NCBI RefSeq assembly: GCF_003201105.1
Contig: NZ_QICJ01000004.1
Location: 124,001-188,000, forward strand
Length of the DNA stretch: 64,000 nucleotides
Reading direction: 5' to 3'
From: Dyella sp. AtDHG13
GTDB lineage: Bacteria; Pseudomonadota; Gammaproteobacteria; Xanthomonadales; Rhodanobacteraceae
Shown here: in pieces, positions 5,662 through 26,925 of the stretch
How positions within the stretch are numbered: the first letter of the stretch is position 1
How the letters are laid out: each line of letters starts with the position of its first letter
Position numbers and translations under genes: made by a program
Notes under the pieces: generated by a model
The model's input: only the letters and a program-made list of their open reading frames with translations
Told to the model about the DNA's origin: nothing
The model's database searches: none

Positions 5662-6723
5662 TCAGAACGACATGTCGAACGCGACTTCGCCCTGCACGCC
5701 CACCTGGTAGGCCGACACGCGGCGCTCGAAGAAGTTGGTCACTTCCTGCACGTCCTGCAGGTCCATGAAGTCGAAGGGGTTCTTCGAGCCGTACTTCTTC
5801 GGCAGGTCGAGCTGGGTCAGGCGCTGGTCCGCGCAGTATTCCAGGTACTGGCGCATGTCCTTCACCGACAGGCCGGCCACGCCGCCGGAGAGCACGTCCT
5901 CGGCGAACTGCGTCTCGCAGGCGATGGCTTCTTCCAGCATCTCCTCGATCTGCGCGCGCATGGCGTCGTCGAACAGGTCGGGTTCTTCCGCGCGCACGGT
6001 GCGCACCACGTCGAACGCGAACGCCATGTGGCAGCTCTCGTCGCGGAACACCCAGTTGGTGCCCGAAGCCAGCCCGTGCAGCAGGCCGCGCGAGCGCAGG
6101 AAGTACACGTAGGCGAACGCGGCGAAGAAGAACAGGCCCTCGATGCACGCCGCGAAGCAGATCAGGTTCAGCAGGAACTGGCGGCGCTGTTCGCGCGTCT
6201 CCAGCTTGTGCAGGTTCTGGATGGAGTCGATCCACTTGAAGCAGAACTCGCCCTTCTGACGGATCGACGGGATGTTCTGGATCGCCGCGAACGCCTTGTT
6301 GCGCTCCGCCGGATCGGGAATGTAGGTGTCCAGCAGCGTCAGATAGAACTGCACGTGCAGCGCTTCCTCAAAGAGCTGGCGCGACAGGTACATGCGCGCT
6401 TCCGGCGCGTTGATGTGCTGGTAAAGGTTCAGCACCAGGTTGTTCGCCACGATGGTGTCGCCGGTGGCGAAGAAGGCCACCAGGCGATGGATCAGGTGGC
6501 GGTCCGCGTCGGACATCTTCGAGCGCAGGTCGGTGACGTCCAGCGAGAAATCCACCTCGTCCACCGTCCAGGTGTTCTTGATCGCGTTGCGGTACATCTC
6601 GTAGAACTCGGGATAGCGCATCGGGCGCAGGGTGAGTTCGAAGCCGGGATCAAGGATGCGAGGAGTGAGTGAAGAGGAGTGAGAAGTGAGAGAGTTGACT
6701 TCGTTGCTGACAGAGGAGGTCAT
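5662..6723 (-). CDS. nrdB: Ribonucleoside-diphosphate reductase subunit beta (class Ia), atypical N-terminus
   Basis: The radical-generating subunit of aerobic ribonucleotide reductase, partner of NrdA, here 353 residues. All diiron ligands can be placed: D89, E120, H123, E195, E229 and H232 (FRDESCH). The tyrosyl-radical Tyr is Y127, four residues after H123 as in E. coli NrdB. The body begins at PRILDPGFELTLRPM. The preceding residues, around VNSLTSHSSSLT, are encoded by a GTGAG-type intergenic repeat, and no Shine-Dalgarno precedes either ATG (6723 or 6729). So an insertion appears to have replaced the original start region. The gene lies downstream of nrdA, separated by an antisense four-helix-bundle gene. 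The exact start is uncertain; function is not. Confidence 0.92.
   Translation of the reverse strand: MTSSVSNEVNSLTSHSSSLTPRILDPGFELTLRPMRYPEFYEMYRNAIKNTWTVDEVDFSLDVTDLRSKMSDADRHLIHRLVAFFATGDTIVANNLVLNLYQHINAPEARMYLSRQLFEEALHVQFYLTLLDTYIPDPAERNKAFAAIQNIPSIRQKGEFCFKWIDSIQNLHKLETREQRRQFLLNLICFAACIEGLFFFAAFAYVYFLRSRGLLHGLASGTNWVFRDESCHMAFAFDVVRTVRAEEPDLFDDAMRAQIEEMLEEAIACETQFAEDVLSGGVAGLSVKDMRQYLEYCADQRLTQLDLPKKYGSKNPFDFMDLQDVQEVTNFFERRVSAYQVGVQGEVAFDMSF
6661..6694. repeat. GTGAG-family repeat, left end of nrdAB cassette
   Basis: A loosely heptameric purine-rich array (GTGAGNA-like). Over about 33 bases it differs from the left arm of the 26.84 kb copy at only about two positions. It lies inside the nrdB reading frame and encodes part of its N-terminus. 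Confidence 0.8.
6714..6719 (+). promoter_or_regulatory. Strong Shine-Dalgarno of the four-helix-bundle gene
   Basis: AGGAGG lies four bases before the GTG at 6724. This decides the start: it gives the family-typical N-terminus MHYRNTVVWGKAME, while the ATG at 6722 is in another frame and too close. Confidence 0.75.
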
Positions 6724-7077
6724 GTGCATTACCGGAATACTGTGGTGTGGGGCAAGGCGATGGAGATGGCCTGCGAGATCTATCGTTTGGCGAAGCTGCT
6801 TCCCGAAGAGGAGAGGTACGGCCTGAGGAGTCAGATGACCCGCTCTGCCGTGTCAGTGCCGAGCAATATCGCCGAAGGCTGGACGCGTGAATCGAAGAAG
6901 GAGAAATCCCAGTTCCTCTCCATTGCTCATGGCTCTCTGGCGGAACTTGAAACCCAACTGACGCTGTGCGAAAGGATTGGCTGGCTCAGCGCGCAGAGAA
7001 CGGCCTACGTGCGGGAACGAGTGGAGGAAGTAAGCCGAATACTGACAACTATGCGCAGAAATCAACGAGCGCCGTAG
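6724..7077 (+). CDS. Four-helix-bundle protein (23S rRNA intervening-sequence/S23 family)
   Basis: A 117-residue protein with the family hallmarks: VVWGKAMEM at the start, SQMTRSAVSVPSNIAEGW around residues 37-53, and SIAHGSLAELETQL around 66-79, predicted to form four helices. Relatives are encoded by intervening sequences in 23S rRNA genes of some bacteria, and a distant relative (Avd) assists diversity-generating retroelements; a biochemical role is not established for stand-alone copies. The gene starts at GTG behind AGGAGG. It is antisense to, and wholly contained between, nrdA and nrdB, and is flanked by inverted GTGAG repeats. This context suggests a selfish or element-associated gene rather than a dNTP-synthesis gene. 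Confidence 0.85.
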   Translation: MHYRNTVVWGKAMEMACEIYRLAKLLPEEERYGLRSQMTRSAVSVPSNIAEGWTRESKKEKSQFLSIAHGSLAELETQLTLCERIGWLSAQRTAYVRERVEEVSRILTTMRRNQRAP

Positions 7078-7080
7078 TCG

Positions 7081-7108
7081 CCTTCTCTCACTACTCACTT
7101 CTCTCCAC
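7081..7108. repeat. GTGAG-family repeat, right end of nrdAB cassette
   Basis: The inverse orientation of the left end. It matches the right end of the 26.9 kb copy with about two differences over 28 bases. It lies between the stop codons of the four-helix-bundle gene and nrdA. Confidence 0.78.
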
Positions 7109-7120
7109 TCTTTCCTGCTC

Positions 7121-9613
7121 TTACTGACACGCCTCGCAATACTCCGGATTCTCCAGCGAGCAGAACACTGCCGCGTTCGCCTGTTCCTGATCCACGACCG
7201 GAGCGGCCGGTTTCGCAACCGGTGCCGCCGATACCGTGGTCTTGGCGATCTTGGTGGCCGGACGCGAACGCAGGTAATACGTGGTCTTGATGCCGGACTT
7301 CCACGCGTACATGTACATGGAGCTGAGCTGGCCGATGTTCGGGTTTTCCATGAACAGGTTCAGCGACTGGCTCTGGTCGATGTATGCGCCGCGCGCGGCG
7401 CCGAGATCGATCAGTGCCTTCTGCGGCAGCTCCCACACAGTGCGGTAGATGGTGCGCAGGCGTTCCGGAATCGCGCTGATGCCCTGGATGGAGCCTTCCG
7501 CCAGCTTGATCGCGTCGCGGATCTCCGCCGTCCACAGGCCCAGCGTCTTCAGTTCTTCCACCAGGTAGCGGTTGACCACCAGGAAGTCGCCCGACAGCGT
7601 CTCGCGCTTGAACAGGTTGCTCACCTGCGGCTCGATGCACTCGTAGCAGCCGGCGATGGAGGCGATGGTGGCGGTCGGGGCGATGGCGATCAGCAGCGAG
7701 TTGCGCAGGCCCCTGGCCTTGATCGATTCGCGCAGTTCGTCCCAGCGTGCCTTGTTGGTGGGCGTGGCGTTCGGCCAGTAGTCGAACTGCAGCTCGCCGT
7801 TGGCCGCGCGGCTTTCCGCAAAGCCCGGATGCGCACCGTGCTCGGCGGCCAGTTCGTTCGACTGCCACAGCGCGTTGTAGTAGATCTCCTCGGCGATGCG
7901 CGTGGAGAGCAGCAGCGCTTCGGCCGAGTCGAACGGCAGGCGCAGCTTGAAGAACACGTCCTGCAGGCCCATCACGCCCAGGCCCACCGGACGCCACTTG
8001 TTGTTGGCGACCTTGGCGGTGTCGATCGGGTAGAAGTTCAGGTCGATCACGCGGTCCAGCTGGCGCACCGCGGTGCGCACGGTGGCGGCGAGCTTGTCGA
8101 AATCGAATTGGCCGTCCACCACGTGGCGCGACAGGTTCACCGAACCCAGGTTGCATACCGCCGTTTCATCGGCGTTGGTGACTTCCAGGATCTCGGTGCA
8201 CAGGTTCGACAGGTGGATGACGTTTTCCGGCTTCGCCGTCTGGTTGCTGGTGGCGTTGCTGCGGTCCTTGAAGGTCATCCAGCCATTGCCGGTCTGCGCC
8301 AGCGTGCGCAGCATGCGGGCGTAGAGCTCGCGCGCCTTCACCTTCTTGGTGGCCAGGCCGGCGGCCTCGGCTTCGCGGTAGGCCTTCTCGAAGGTCTCGC
8401 CCCAGCTGTCGACGAAGTGCGGCACGATCTTCGGATCGAACAGCGACCACTCGCCGTCCGCTTCCACGCGGCGCATGAATTCGTCGGGGATCCAGTTGGC
8501 CAGGTTGAGGTTGTGCGTGCGGCGCGCTTCGTCGCCGGTGTTGTCGCGCAGCTCGAGGAACTCCTCGATGTCGCCGTGCCACGGTTCCAGGTACACGCAG
8601 GCCGCGCCCTTGCGCTTGCCGCCCTGGTTCACCGCCGCCACGGAGGCGTCCAGCGTCTTCAGCCACGGCACCAGGCCGTTGGAGTGGCCGTTGGTGCCCT
8701 TGATCAGCGAGCCACGCGAACGCACGCGCGAGTAGGCCAGGCCGATGCCGCCGGCGAACTTGCTGAGCTTGGCCACGTCGCCGTACTTCTCGTAGATCGA
8801 CTCCAGCGAGTCGGCCGGCGAGTCGAGCAGGAAGCACGAGCTGAGCTGTTCGTGCGCGGTGCCCGCGTTGAACAGCGTCGGCGAACTGGCGATGTATTCC
8901 AGCGAGGACAGCAGGCGGTACAGCTCCAGCGTTTCGCCGATCTCGTTGCCGCCCAGCGCGCAGGCGATGCGCATGAAGAAGTGCTGCGGCGTCTCGATCA
9001 CCTTGCGCAGCTGCGGATGGCGCAGCAGGTAGCGGTCATAGACGGTGCGCAGGCCGAAGTATTCGAAGCGACGCGTGGCGAGCGGGTCGATCGCGTCGTT
9101 GAGCTTGCGCGAGTTGGCCGCCACGAAGTCGCGCAGGCGATCGTTGAGGATGCCCAGTTCCGCGCCGCGCGCGATGGACTGCGAGAAGCTCTGGATTTCC
9201 TGGCCGCTCACTTCCTTGTCGATGAACGCGCCCAGCAGGCGCGCGGCGAGCTGGCCGTATTCGGGCTCCTCGGCGGTGAGCGCGGCGGCGGTGCGGATGG
9301 AGAGCTGGTCCAGCTCCTGCGTGGTGGCGCCGTCGTACAGGCCGCCGATGGTCTTGAGCGCCACGCGCATCGGGTCGACCGCGTGCAGGCCTTCCGCGCT
9401 GCGGGTCACGGCGCGCACGATCTTGTTCACGTCCACCACTTCCTGGCGGCCGTTGCGCTTGGTCACGCGCATCTGGCCCGGGTTGTGCGGCGGGGTCAGG
9501 GCGAAGGGGGTATCCGTGCGCGGCGCTTCGGCCACGGCGGTGTCGGCGGGGAAAACGGCAGTATCGGCGCGCTCGTCTTCACGCTCGCGGCCGGTGGTAT
9601 CAATGGGTTGCAT
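7121..9613 (-). CDS. nrdA: Ribonucleoside-diphosphate reductase subunit alpha (class Ia)
   Basis: The catalytic subunit that reduces ribonucleotides to deoxyribonucleotides together with NrdB; 830 residues. An acidic N-terminal tail (about 1-45) precedes an ATP-cone allosteric domain (from VTKRNGRQEVVDVNKIVRA). The barrel contains SSCFLLD, SNLCTEI (active-site thiyl Cys) and AVCNLGSVNL. The C-terminal tail has the redox cysteines in ENPEYCEACQ. The start is the ATG with GGAG upstream; a longer reading frame would run into the riboswitch. It is first in the nrdA-nrdB unit, behind tandem NrdR boxes and a cobalamin riboswitch. The latter implies that a B12-dependent class II reductase may exist elsewhere in the genome. 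Confidence 0.95.
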   Translation of the reverse strand: MQPIDTTGREREDERADTAVFPADTAVAEAPRTDTPFALTPPHNPGQMRVTKRNGRQEVVDVNKIVRAVTRSAEGLHAVDPMRVALKTIGGLYDGATTQELDQLSIRTAAALTAEEPEYGQLAARLLGAFIDKEVSGQEIQSFSQSIARGAELGILNDRLRDFVAANSRKLNDAIDPLATRRFEYFGLRTVYDRYLLRHPQLRKVIETPQHFFMRIACALGGNEIGETLELYRLLSSLEYIASSPTLFNAGTAHEQLSSCFLLDSPADSLESIYEKYGDVAKLSKFAGGIGLAYSRVRSRGSLIKGTNGHSNGLVPWLKTLDASVAAVNQGGKRKGAACVYLEPWHGDIEEFLELRDNTGDEARRTHNLNLANWIPDEFMRRVEADGEWSLFDPKIVPHFVDSWGETFEKAYREAEAAGLATKKVKARELYARMLRTLAQTGNGWMTFKDRSNATSNQTAKPENVIHLSNLCTEILEVTNADETAVCNLGSVNLSRHVVDGQFDFDKLAATVRTAVRQLDRVIDLNFYPIDTAKVANNKWRPVGLGVMGLQDVFFKLRLPFDSAEALLLSTRIAEEIYYNALWQSNELAAEHGAHPGFAESRAANGELQFDYWPNATPTNKARWDELRESIKARGLRNSLLIAIAPTATIASIAGCYECIEPQVSNLFKRETLSGDFLVVNRYLVEELKTLGLWTAEIRDAIKLAEGSIQGISAIPERLRTIYRTVWELPQKALIDLGAARGAYIDQSQSLNLFMENPNIGQLSSMYMYAWKSGIKTTYYLRSRPATKIAKTTVSAAPVAKPAAPVVDQEQANAAVFCSLENPEYCEACQ

Positions 9614-9774
9614 GGCGACTTCGCTCCAAGCTTGGTCATCAACCGCCTGCTCCCGCGCGCAGGGCTGAAAAGAGAAAGGTGAGGTCTCGCGGACGGTCGA
9701 GCGGCAGGGCTGGCCGCCCCGCGCATCGACGCACCTCCCCGCGGAAGCCGTCACCTTTCACCGTGGTGCTCGCC

Positions 9775-26835: not shown

Positions 26836-26841
26836 AGAGTC

Positions 26842-26913
26842 AGGAGTGAGTAAAGAGAAGTGAGAAGTGAGAGAGAGCGAGAGTGCCTTCTCTCACTCCT
26901 CACTTCTCCCCAC
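26842..26913. repeat. Solo GTGAG-family element (empty copy)
   Basis: Left arm 26842-26877 begins AGGAGTGAGTAAAGAG; right arm 26885-26913 begins CCTTCTCTCACTCCTCAC. Both are nearly identical to the two ends of the nrdA-nrdB cassette, but only about seven bases separate them here instead of a gene. The arms can pair over about 20 bases. It lies between the ABC permease stop-side gap and the rluF start. Confidence 0.82.
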
Positions 26914-26925
26914 CATTTTCTGCCC

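Follow-up and report, generated by a model that had tools for sequence, protein, structure and literature searches.

The window analysed here, a stretch of 64,000 nucleotides from Dyella sp. AtDHG13, carries in the gap between nrdA and nrdB (positions 6660-7116) a four-helix-bundle gene of the PF05635 ("S23/23S-IVP") family placed inside inverted arms of GTGAG type. About 50 gene-less copies of this palindrome are found in the same genome, one of them at 26841-26922 of the window. We read the unit as a small element of the intervening sequence (IVS) type living beyond rRNA, of which gene-bearing copies are the source and the gene-less palindromes are non-autonomous copies, and we give this reading a probability of roughly 0.6. 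The arms are built of heptads, the gene-less copies are placed at gene ends and come and go among congeners, and gene-bearing relatives reside in frame inside protein genes. The layout recurs across several phyla and points to a type of mobile DNA that is widespread but has hardly been recognised.

Gene-bearing and gene-less copies in Dyella

The arms of the gene-bearing element (6661-6693 and 7084-7116, the left one starting at 6660 by reading) are inverted, 33 nt long, 85% complementary and spaced by 390 nt (Table 1). The location test places the element in the nrdA-nrdB gap and not in an rRNA gene. A first-pass annotation of this DNA had described GTGAG arrays around a four-helix-bundle gene between nrdA and nrdB, and this description holds. 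Indeed, the plus-strand ORF 6679-7077 contains the S23-type gene, with a GTG codon at 6724 preceded by GGAGG, and it matches PF05635 (E 4.6e-37, 126.9 bits for a cut-off of 33.8) as well as TIGR02436 (E 5.5e-36). No recognised transposase is encoded, in line with the non-transposase unit proposed in the same annotation. The gene is antisense to both of its neighbours, nrdB and nrdA. According to the translation, the left arm is not intergenic but falls within the nrdB frame, at its 5' end (MTSSVSNEVNSLTSHSSSLTPRILDPGFEL...); its first 31 bases are exactly those of the consensus arm.

Table 1. Coordinates, in the window, of the two copies of the element and of the neighbouring genes.
Feature	Position	Strand	Remarks
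nrdB	5662..6723 (or to 6729)	-	PF00268 E 2.5e-82 on 5662-6729; 5' end crosses left arm
Left heptad arm, gene-bearing element	6660..6693	+	minus strand codes part of NrdB N-terminal extension (NSLTSHSSSLTPR)
Four-helix-bundle (S23 / 23S-IVP) gene	6724..7077	+	117 aa, GTG start
Right heptad arm, gene-bearing element	7084..7116	-	ends 4 nt short of nrdA stop
nrdA, upstream neighbour	7121..9754	-	PF02867, PF00317, PF03477
Left arm, gene-less copy	26841..26874	+	inverted-repeat analysis, alignment of copies
Right arm, gene-less copy	26889..26922	-	inverted-repeat analysis, alignment of copies

The closest named relative of the window gene, among the best 80 of 178 loci, is that of Dyella solisilvae (88% identical). 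Between the two genes dS is 1.22 and dN 0.073 (dN/dS 0.06); by this sequence measure, the S23-type gene is under purifying selection. The two species show no difference over 44 nt containing the left arm, nor over 28 nt of the right arm. Other Lysobacterales genera have the gene in the nrdA-nrdB gap, in the same orientation, and the copy found there is thus an old resident. The NrdB start motif adjoins the gene in 13 of the 17 loci L033-L049 examined by script (L037 was confirmed by eye). On plasmid pNe_5 of Nostoc edaphicum (L315), a relative of the gene is also found between nrdB and nrdA, oriented as in the window.

In the gene-less copy, the arms 26855-26874 and 26889-26908 are 95% complementary and spaced by 14 nt, and RNA folding of the copy gives z values of -5.99 and -7.75 for its two strands. 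The first-pass annotation had noticed these nearly identical ends at 26842-26913; the copy exists, not as a single twin but as one of about 50. A 17-nt arm pattern with up to two mismatches has 53+52 (105) matches in the genome, as compared to 1+0 for the reversed pattern. The matches were grouped by hand into about 53 clusters and 49 stretches were compared. Their common layout is heptad arm, spacer and complementary arm, some being only partial, and the best arms of the 49 loci are 0 to 8 bases off a 31-nt consensus. The gene was found in only one of the GTGAG copies of this genome. A second S23-type gene, located by reading between accC and accB, has arms of another type (GGGAATA/GGGAATC).

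The gene-less copies lie at gene ends. Native stop codons of ORFs of at least 100 codons occur at most 25 nt before 56 of 91 arms, as compared to 88 of 1472 simulated placements, and fewer arms than simulated placements are entered by a long open frame (62/91 vs 1179/1472). A first version of this test (85/91 vs 42/490) was discarded as unfair because the arm itself contains stops; the purine strand of the consensus GTGAG arm has stops in all three frames and the other strand has none. Compensatory pairing within elements found no support: in 44 solo copies the pairing score was 0.793 for arms of the same element and 0.816 with arms of other copies, and a repeat with 39 solo copies gave 0.778 and 0.804, respectively. 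The sign of this difference is left uninterpreted because the arm-picking rule favours the left arm.

Comparison of congeners shows turnover. When the nrdA-nrdB gaps of 20 congeners were sorted by eye, two had the gene with GTGAG arms. Eight gaps (L194, L195, L197, L198, L200, L202, L204, L210) contain what looks by eye like a GIY-YIG gene (Pfam was run on L197), together with CGTCATTCC-type palindromes, and one (L211) contains these palindromes without gene. Six others (L196, L199, L205, L206, L207, L209) carry a short ORF of about 75 aa, that of L205 having no Pfam match. The remaining gaps hold other palindromes (2/20) or another gene (1/20), again by eye. The slot of the 26841 copy was compared in 19 genomes, G148 giving no such slot; by eye, a GTGAG copy is present in 3 of them and two other palindromic families in 12 and 4. 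The family found in 12 (L224-L231, L233, L235, L236, L240) has approximately the sequence GGAGCGCACC..GTGCGC. At three further sites, read by eye in 11 genomes, GTGAG copies are present in about 5 (site A), 5 (site B; in tandem in G148) and 3 (site C). At four slots, therefore, the presence of a gene-less copy varies among congeners.

At sites B and C, gaps without a GTGAG copy mostly carry a terminator-like hairpin, as judged by eye. Hence, the occupied and unoccupied states correspond to replacement rather than to clean insertion, as if the solo copy had taken the place of the hairpin. In L314 (site B, 6000-6100; site C, 8925-9045) and loci L319-L328, the hairpin found in most other congeners is missing where the solo copy is present. 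The first-pass annotation had proposed to check uninterrupted nrdA-nrdB gaps for insertion boundaries and a target duplication. Neither a clean empty site nor a target duplication was seen there or at the other slots read, where gaps without a copy hold terminator-like hairpins, palindromes or other genes.

A gene with 57-99% identity along almost its full length is present in 9 of 147 genomes of the family. At least 20 GTGAG matches are found in 8 of these 9 genomes and in 16 of the 138 others, G076 (56% over 83 residues) being classed with those devoid of a close gene. G044 has a 62% identical gene but 2 GTGAG matches. In three repeat-rich congeners, G049, G154 and G148 (86% complete), the gene was not detected, which argues that gene-less copies can outlive the gene.

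The idea of a mobile family, put forward in the annotation, is retained in part. Gene-bearing and gene-less forms share one arm family, relatives with similar arms occur elsewhere, and copies vary among congeners; the nrdA-nrdB copy itself, as an old resident, does not fit. Together with the lack of target duplication at the slots read and the three repeat-rich congeners in which the gene was not detected, it speaks against a simple cassette. The solo copies may have spread in trans or arisen by internal deletion, as that annotation proposed; the data fit either route. A fixed local feature does not account for the data either, in view of the accC-accB copy, the variable gene-less copies and nine intragenic copies described below.

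Another reading, which we regard as rather unlikely, is that the heptad palindromes are gene-end hairpins useful to the host, as terminators or mRNA-end protectors, with the S23-like protein as an RNA-binding partner; the system would be post-transcriptional and not mobile. The position of solo arms at stop codons (56/91), the strong folding of the window gene-less copy as RNA and the mostly ordinary terminator-like hairpins seen by eye at sites B and C when the copy is absent agree with it, as do purifying selection on the gene and the fact that the nearest outside fold, Avd, is found also in ribonucleoprotein entries of diversity-generating retroelements (DGR). It leaves unexplained, however, the in-frame copies in kinases and methylases, the different palindromic families in the same congener slots and the residence of the gene family in rRNA IVSs (available text of PMC4990558).

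Heptad arms around S23-type genes in other genomes

From named genomes, the 80 best of 178 loci were retained, and genome searches supplied further ones; one test of the 80 covered 78 of them, L100 and L110 being too short. At 100 of 146 distinct testable loci, the inverted repeat around the gene beats all 100 shuffles, whereas control windows (same loci, shifted by 900 nt) have a significant inverted repeat in 5 cases out of 283. No significant inverted repeat relative to shuffles is present at the 46 other gene loci. The best arm period is 7 in 82 of the 100 significant loci and in 2 of the 283 control windows. In 43 strong arms, self-match reaches 0.620 at lag 7, 0.607 at lag 14 and 0.600 at lag 21, vs. 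about 0.33 in shuffled arms (0.327 at lag 7), and the best lag is 7 for 37 of them. Arms of this kind consist of degenerate heptads in tandem.

At the same nrdA-nrdB slot, each genus has its own arm type: GTGAG in Dyella, AACGAG in Pseudoxanthomonas, AAGTAG in Arenimonas and AACTAG in Luteimonas. Dispersed matches were then compared with these types, the rows of genome G370 being left out. In Arenimonas, each of the 18 matches of the degenerate pattern belongs to its own AAGTAG type or overlaps a match that does. Pseudoxanthomonas has 290 matches of mixed types, with a high reversed control (106); types are also mixed in Luteimonas and Lysobacter antibioticus, and Lysobacter Root76 has 4 matches. 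The arm sequence is genus-specific and, in the clearest case, matches the dispersed repeats of the same genome.

The association of heptad arms with an S23-type gene spans several bacterial phyla. Of four cyanobacterial plasmid copies, three have clear heptad arms and one (L318) weaker ones. Two cyanobacterial copies, L317 and L318, lie within CRISPR-Cas operons (cas6 / cas4; cas10 / cmr3-type gene). Furthermore, GGGAATC-type arms accompany the gene at L002 and L183, and Nostoc-type arms at L315.

These data bear on the idea that the gene is a passenger, replication slippage and recombination making and spreading heptad arrays beside which the gene merely happens to lie in operon gaps. The many genomes having repeats but no close gene, as well as the slippage origin of heptamers cited in the available text of PMC4692102, are in its favour. 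Nevertheless, inverted heptad arms surround the gene at 100/146 loci vs. 5/283 control windows, arms are genus-specific at one slot, and they are conserved beyond synonymous sites between two species, so that we find this explanation improbable.

Copies read in frame inside protein genes

A stop-to-stop frame analysis picked out 7 of the 80 best loci retained from 178 and 9 of a set of 87, six of the latter being places already in the first set. The 87 come from 89 loci, L270 and L280 having no local match; antisense frames were covered in the set of 80. L111, first flagged as spanning, was discarded since a gene can be recognised in its downstream half only. Overall, 9 of 150 distinct loci have a host frame without stops across both arms and the entire gene. 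The hosts are DUF1156 methylases (L038, L054, L296 and L297, all at one loop), histidine kinases (L050, L051 and L056), an Eco57I/MmeI-like methylase (L109, Methylocaldum sp. 14B) and the product of L283, which has no Pfam match and is methylase-like by eye only. The host frame is always one base before the gene's own frame (9/9 loci), and the +1 frame is open in 0 of the 150.

In the three kinases, the HATPase_c match continues past the element from profile position 37 or 38, and HisKA and receiver domains are found within the same ORF as the split HATPase_c. When residues 400-560 of kinase L051, which cover its insert, were searched against a protein database, 1192 candidates came up, none at E 0.001. 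In relatives of the DUF1156 methylases, the loop has 29-36 residues in 103 of the 111 proteins measured (out of 120 listed, P0038 and P0044 being among those missing), and 182 residues in P0039. An overlapping-frame insert is located at this loop in P0038, P0039 and P0044, by reading for P0038 and P0044. The same loop carries an insert containing Y1_Tnp in P0016 and P0047. In a domain survey of DUF1156 methylases, in which 8000 candidates were scored, precomputed Pfam matches indicate in-frame Y1_Tnp in P0016, P0047, P0004 and P0041, and intein-like domains in P0008. The methylase ORF of L297 (894-3332) also contains an in-frame DUF559 domain (residues 688-794, E 7.3e-36) next to proline-rich repeat peptides; it looks as though another kind of element had been inserted in frame here.

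Shuffling of synonymous codons at the nine loci gave 15.3 expected stops for the host frame, vs. 0 observed, and 60.0 vs. 61 for the other frame. The nine loci were selected for zero stops, and the chance of an open frame at a single locus is 0.02 to 0.41; where GC content is high, an overlapping frame has a fair chance of staying open. The claim of in-frame residence therefore rests on the split domains and the uninterrupted relatives. Non-spanning genes have 720 stops in the -1 frame for 863.4 expected, a shortage that may be due to codon-context bias.

Proposed mechanism and known systems

The AlphaFold model of the protein is a confident four-helix bundle (pLDDT 95.5). In 146 sequences, S44 and E51 never vary, and conservation reaches 97% or more at Q37, R40, N48, G52, S71, E74 and W9. 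The model matches 2gsc (Xanthomonas XCC0516) with a TM score of 0.93, 2rld and, more weakly, Avd. The nearest fold outside the family is this DGR accessory protein (E 0.017-0.043), with 14-16% identity only. No nuclease fold was found among the structural matches, and Pfam analysis of the window gene gave PF05635 and a weak bAvd match, with no Y1_Tnp (PF01797) or other nuclease domain. The entries 2gsc and 2rld have five chains each, and relatives of the protein presumably form five-membered rings. Copying of the element via RNA by a reverse transcriptase acting in trans, with the S23-like protein as an Avd-like RNA-binding partner, is very improbable: the fold is similar to that of Avd and the gene weakly matches PF22296 (bAvd, E 2.8e-06, below its cut-off), but RVT_1 (PF00078) passes its cut-off in 2 of 12 genomes (G155 and G035; weak in a third) and a profile search gave no match for it in the Dyella genome itself, a result that concerns this enzyme type and the genomes as they are now.

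Coming back to the IVS-type element, we propose that its protein, an oligomer to judge from its relatives, would recognise folded heptad arms as RNA or single-stranded DNA and would help copies to reach gene boundaries or tolerant loops. Strand breakage and synthesis would be carried out by host enzymes or by an unrecognised activity of the protein. In this way, the protein would move the element. The cost to the host would be limited in two ways. A GTGAG arm would stop the incoming (purine) strand in all three frames and the outgoing strand in none and, in intragenic copies, the overlapping frame would let the host protein be read straight through.

A broader version of this proposal is tentative, and we hold it at slightly less than even odds. 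The elements might form a phylum-spanning mobile class in which a four-helix-bundle oligomer devoid of known nuclease recognises heptad hairpin arms, orphan heptads (GGGAATC of Xanthomonas, those of Nostoc, perhaps TAACTGA) being non-autonomous copies. Such a dual-coding element would be transparent to host ORFs and could live inside protein genes because its gene uses a second frame and the host protein is still read; rRNA IVSs would be a special case, in which the host gene makes no protein. If this is true, dispersed heptad repeats gain a partner protein and thereby a testable cause, S23/IVP proteins, called functionally uncharacterised (PMC11270868), get a natural setting, and the in-frame copies in kinases and methylases are rare cases of a mobile gene overprinted on a host reading frame. 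Three points appear to be new: the rule that the arms are generally built of heptads, the connection with dispersed heptads, and the copies lying in frame inside protein genes. In the open-access literature, we found no paper connecting S23/IVP genes with dispersed heptads or with insertion in frame.

Several known systems share some of these features. Like MITEs, the gene-less copies are short inverted-repeat elements without gene, present in many copies; their ends are shared with an S23-type gene, no parent transposase was seen with these ends, and no target duplication was seen at the slots read. REP/REPIN sequences and their RAYT (Y1_Tnp) proteins combine dispersed palindromes with one cognate single-gene source. 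The present system resembles them in this respect, and Y1_Tnp inserts occur at the methylase loop used by the element, but the window gene has no Y1_Tnp or other nuclease domain and its arms are heptad arrays. Rickettsia palindromic elements reside in frame inside protein genes and are not known to carry a gene, whereas here a conserved gene overlaps the host frame. With Avd of diversity-generating retroelements, the protein shares the four-helix-bundle fold; it differs by the low identity (14-16%) and by the absence of an RVT_1 match in its own genome.

Heptameric intergenic repeats have been described with the sequences GGGAATC in Xanthomonas and GGGGA(C/T)T in Nostoc (PMC4692102), and TAACTGA in Beggiatoaceae (PMC4679880). 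They share the seven-base period with the present arms and, in PMC4692102, the inverted pairs and the gene-end orientation as well. The available text of that paper reports no general link of the Xanthomonas heptads with mobile elements, and stable positions (83% common to two species), which weighs against the mobile reading and suggests a slow turnover. In PMC4679880, a protein binding TAACTGA is put forward, as a speculation, as a possible mobile element. The available texts of the two papers name no S23/IVP partner, whereas here the S23-type gene is linked to both GGGAATC-type (L002, L183) and Nostoc-type (L315) arms.

Finally, a close parallel in layout comes from rRNA. In the Coxiella burnetii IVS, an S23p/IVP ORF is located in the stem of terminal inverted repeats, with tandem heptamers just upstream; this ORF is decaying and probably not expressed (PMC4990558). 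The protein family by name, the position of the gene between terminal inverted repeats and, in Coxiella, the heptamers are thus common to both. In contrast, elements of the window type are found between or inside protein genes, have dozens of dispersed gene-less copies and, when intragenic, are read through in the host frame. The older suggestion that the IVS ORF is a mobility component, cited in the available text of PMC4990558, thereby becomes testable.
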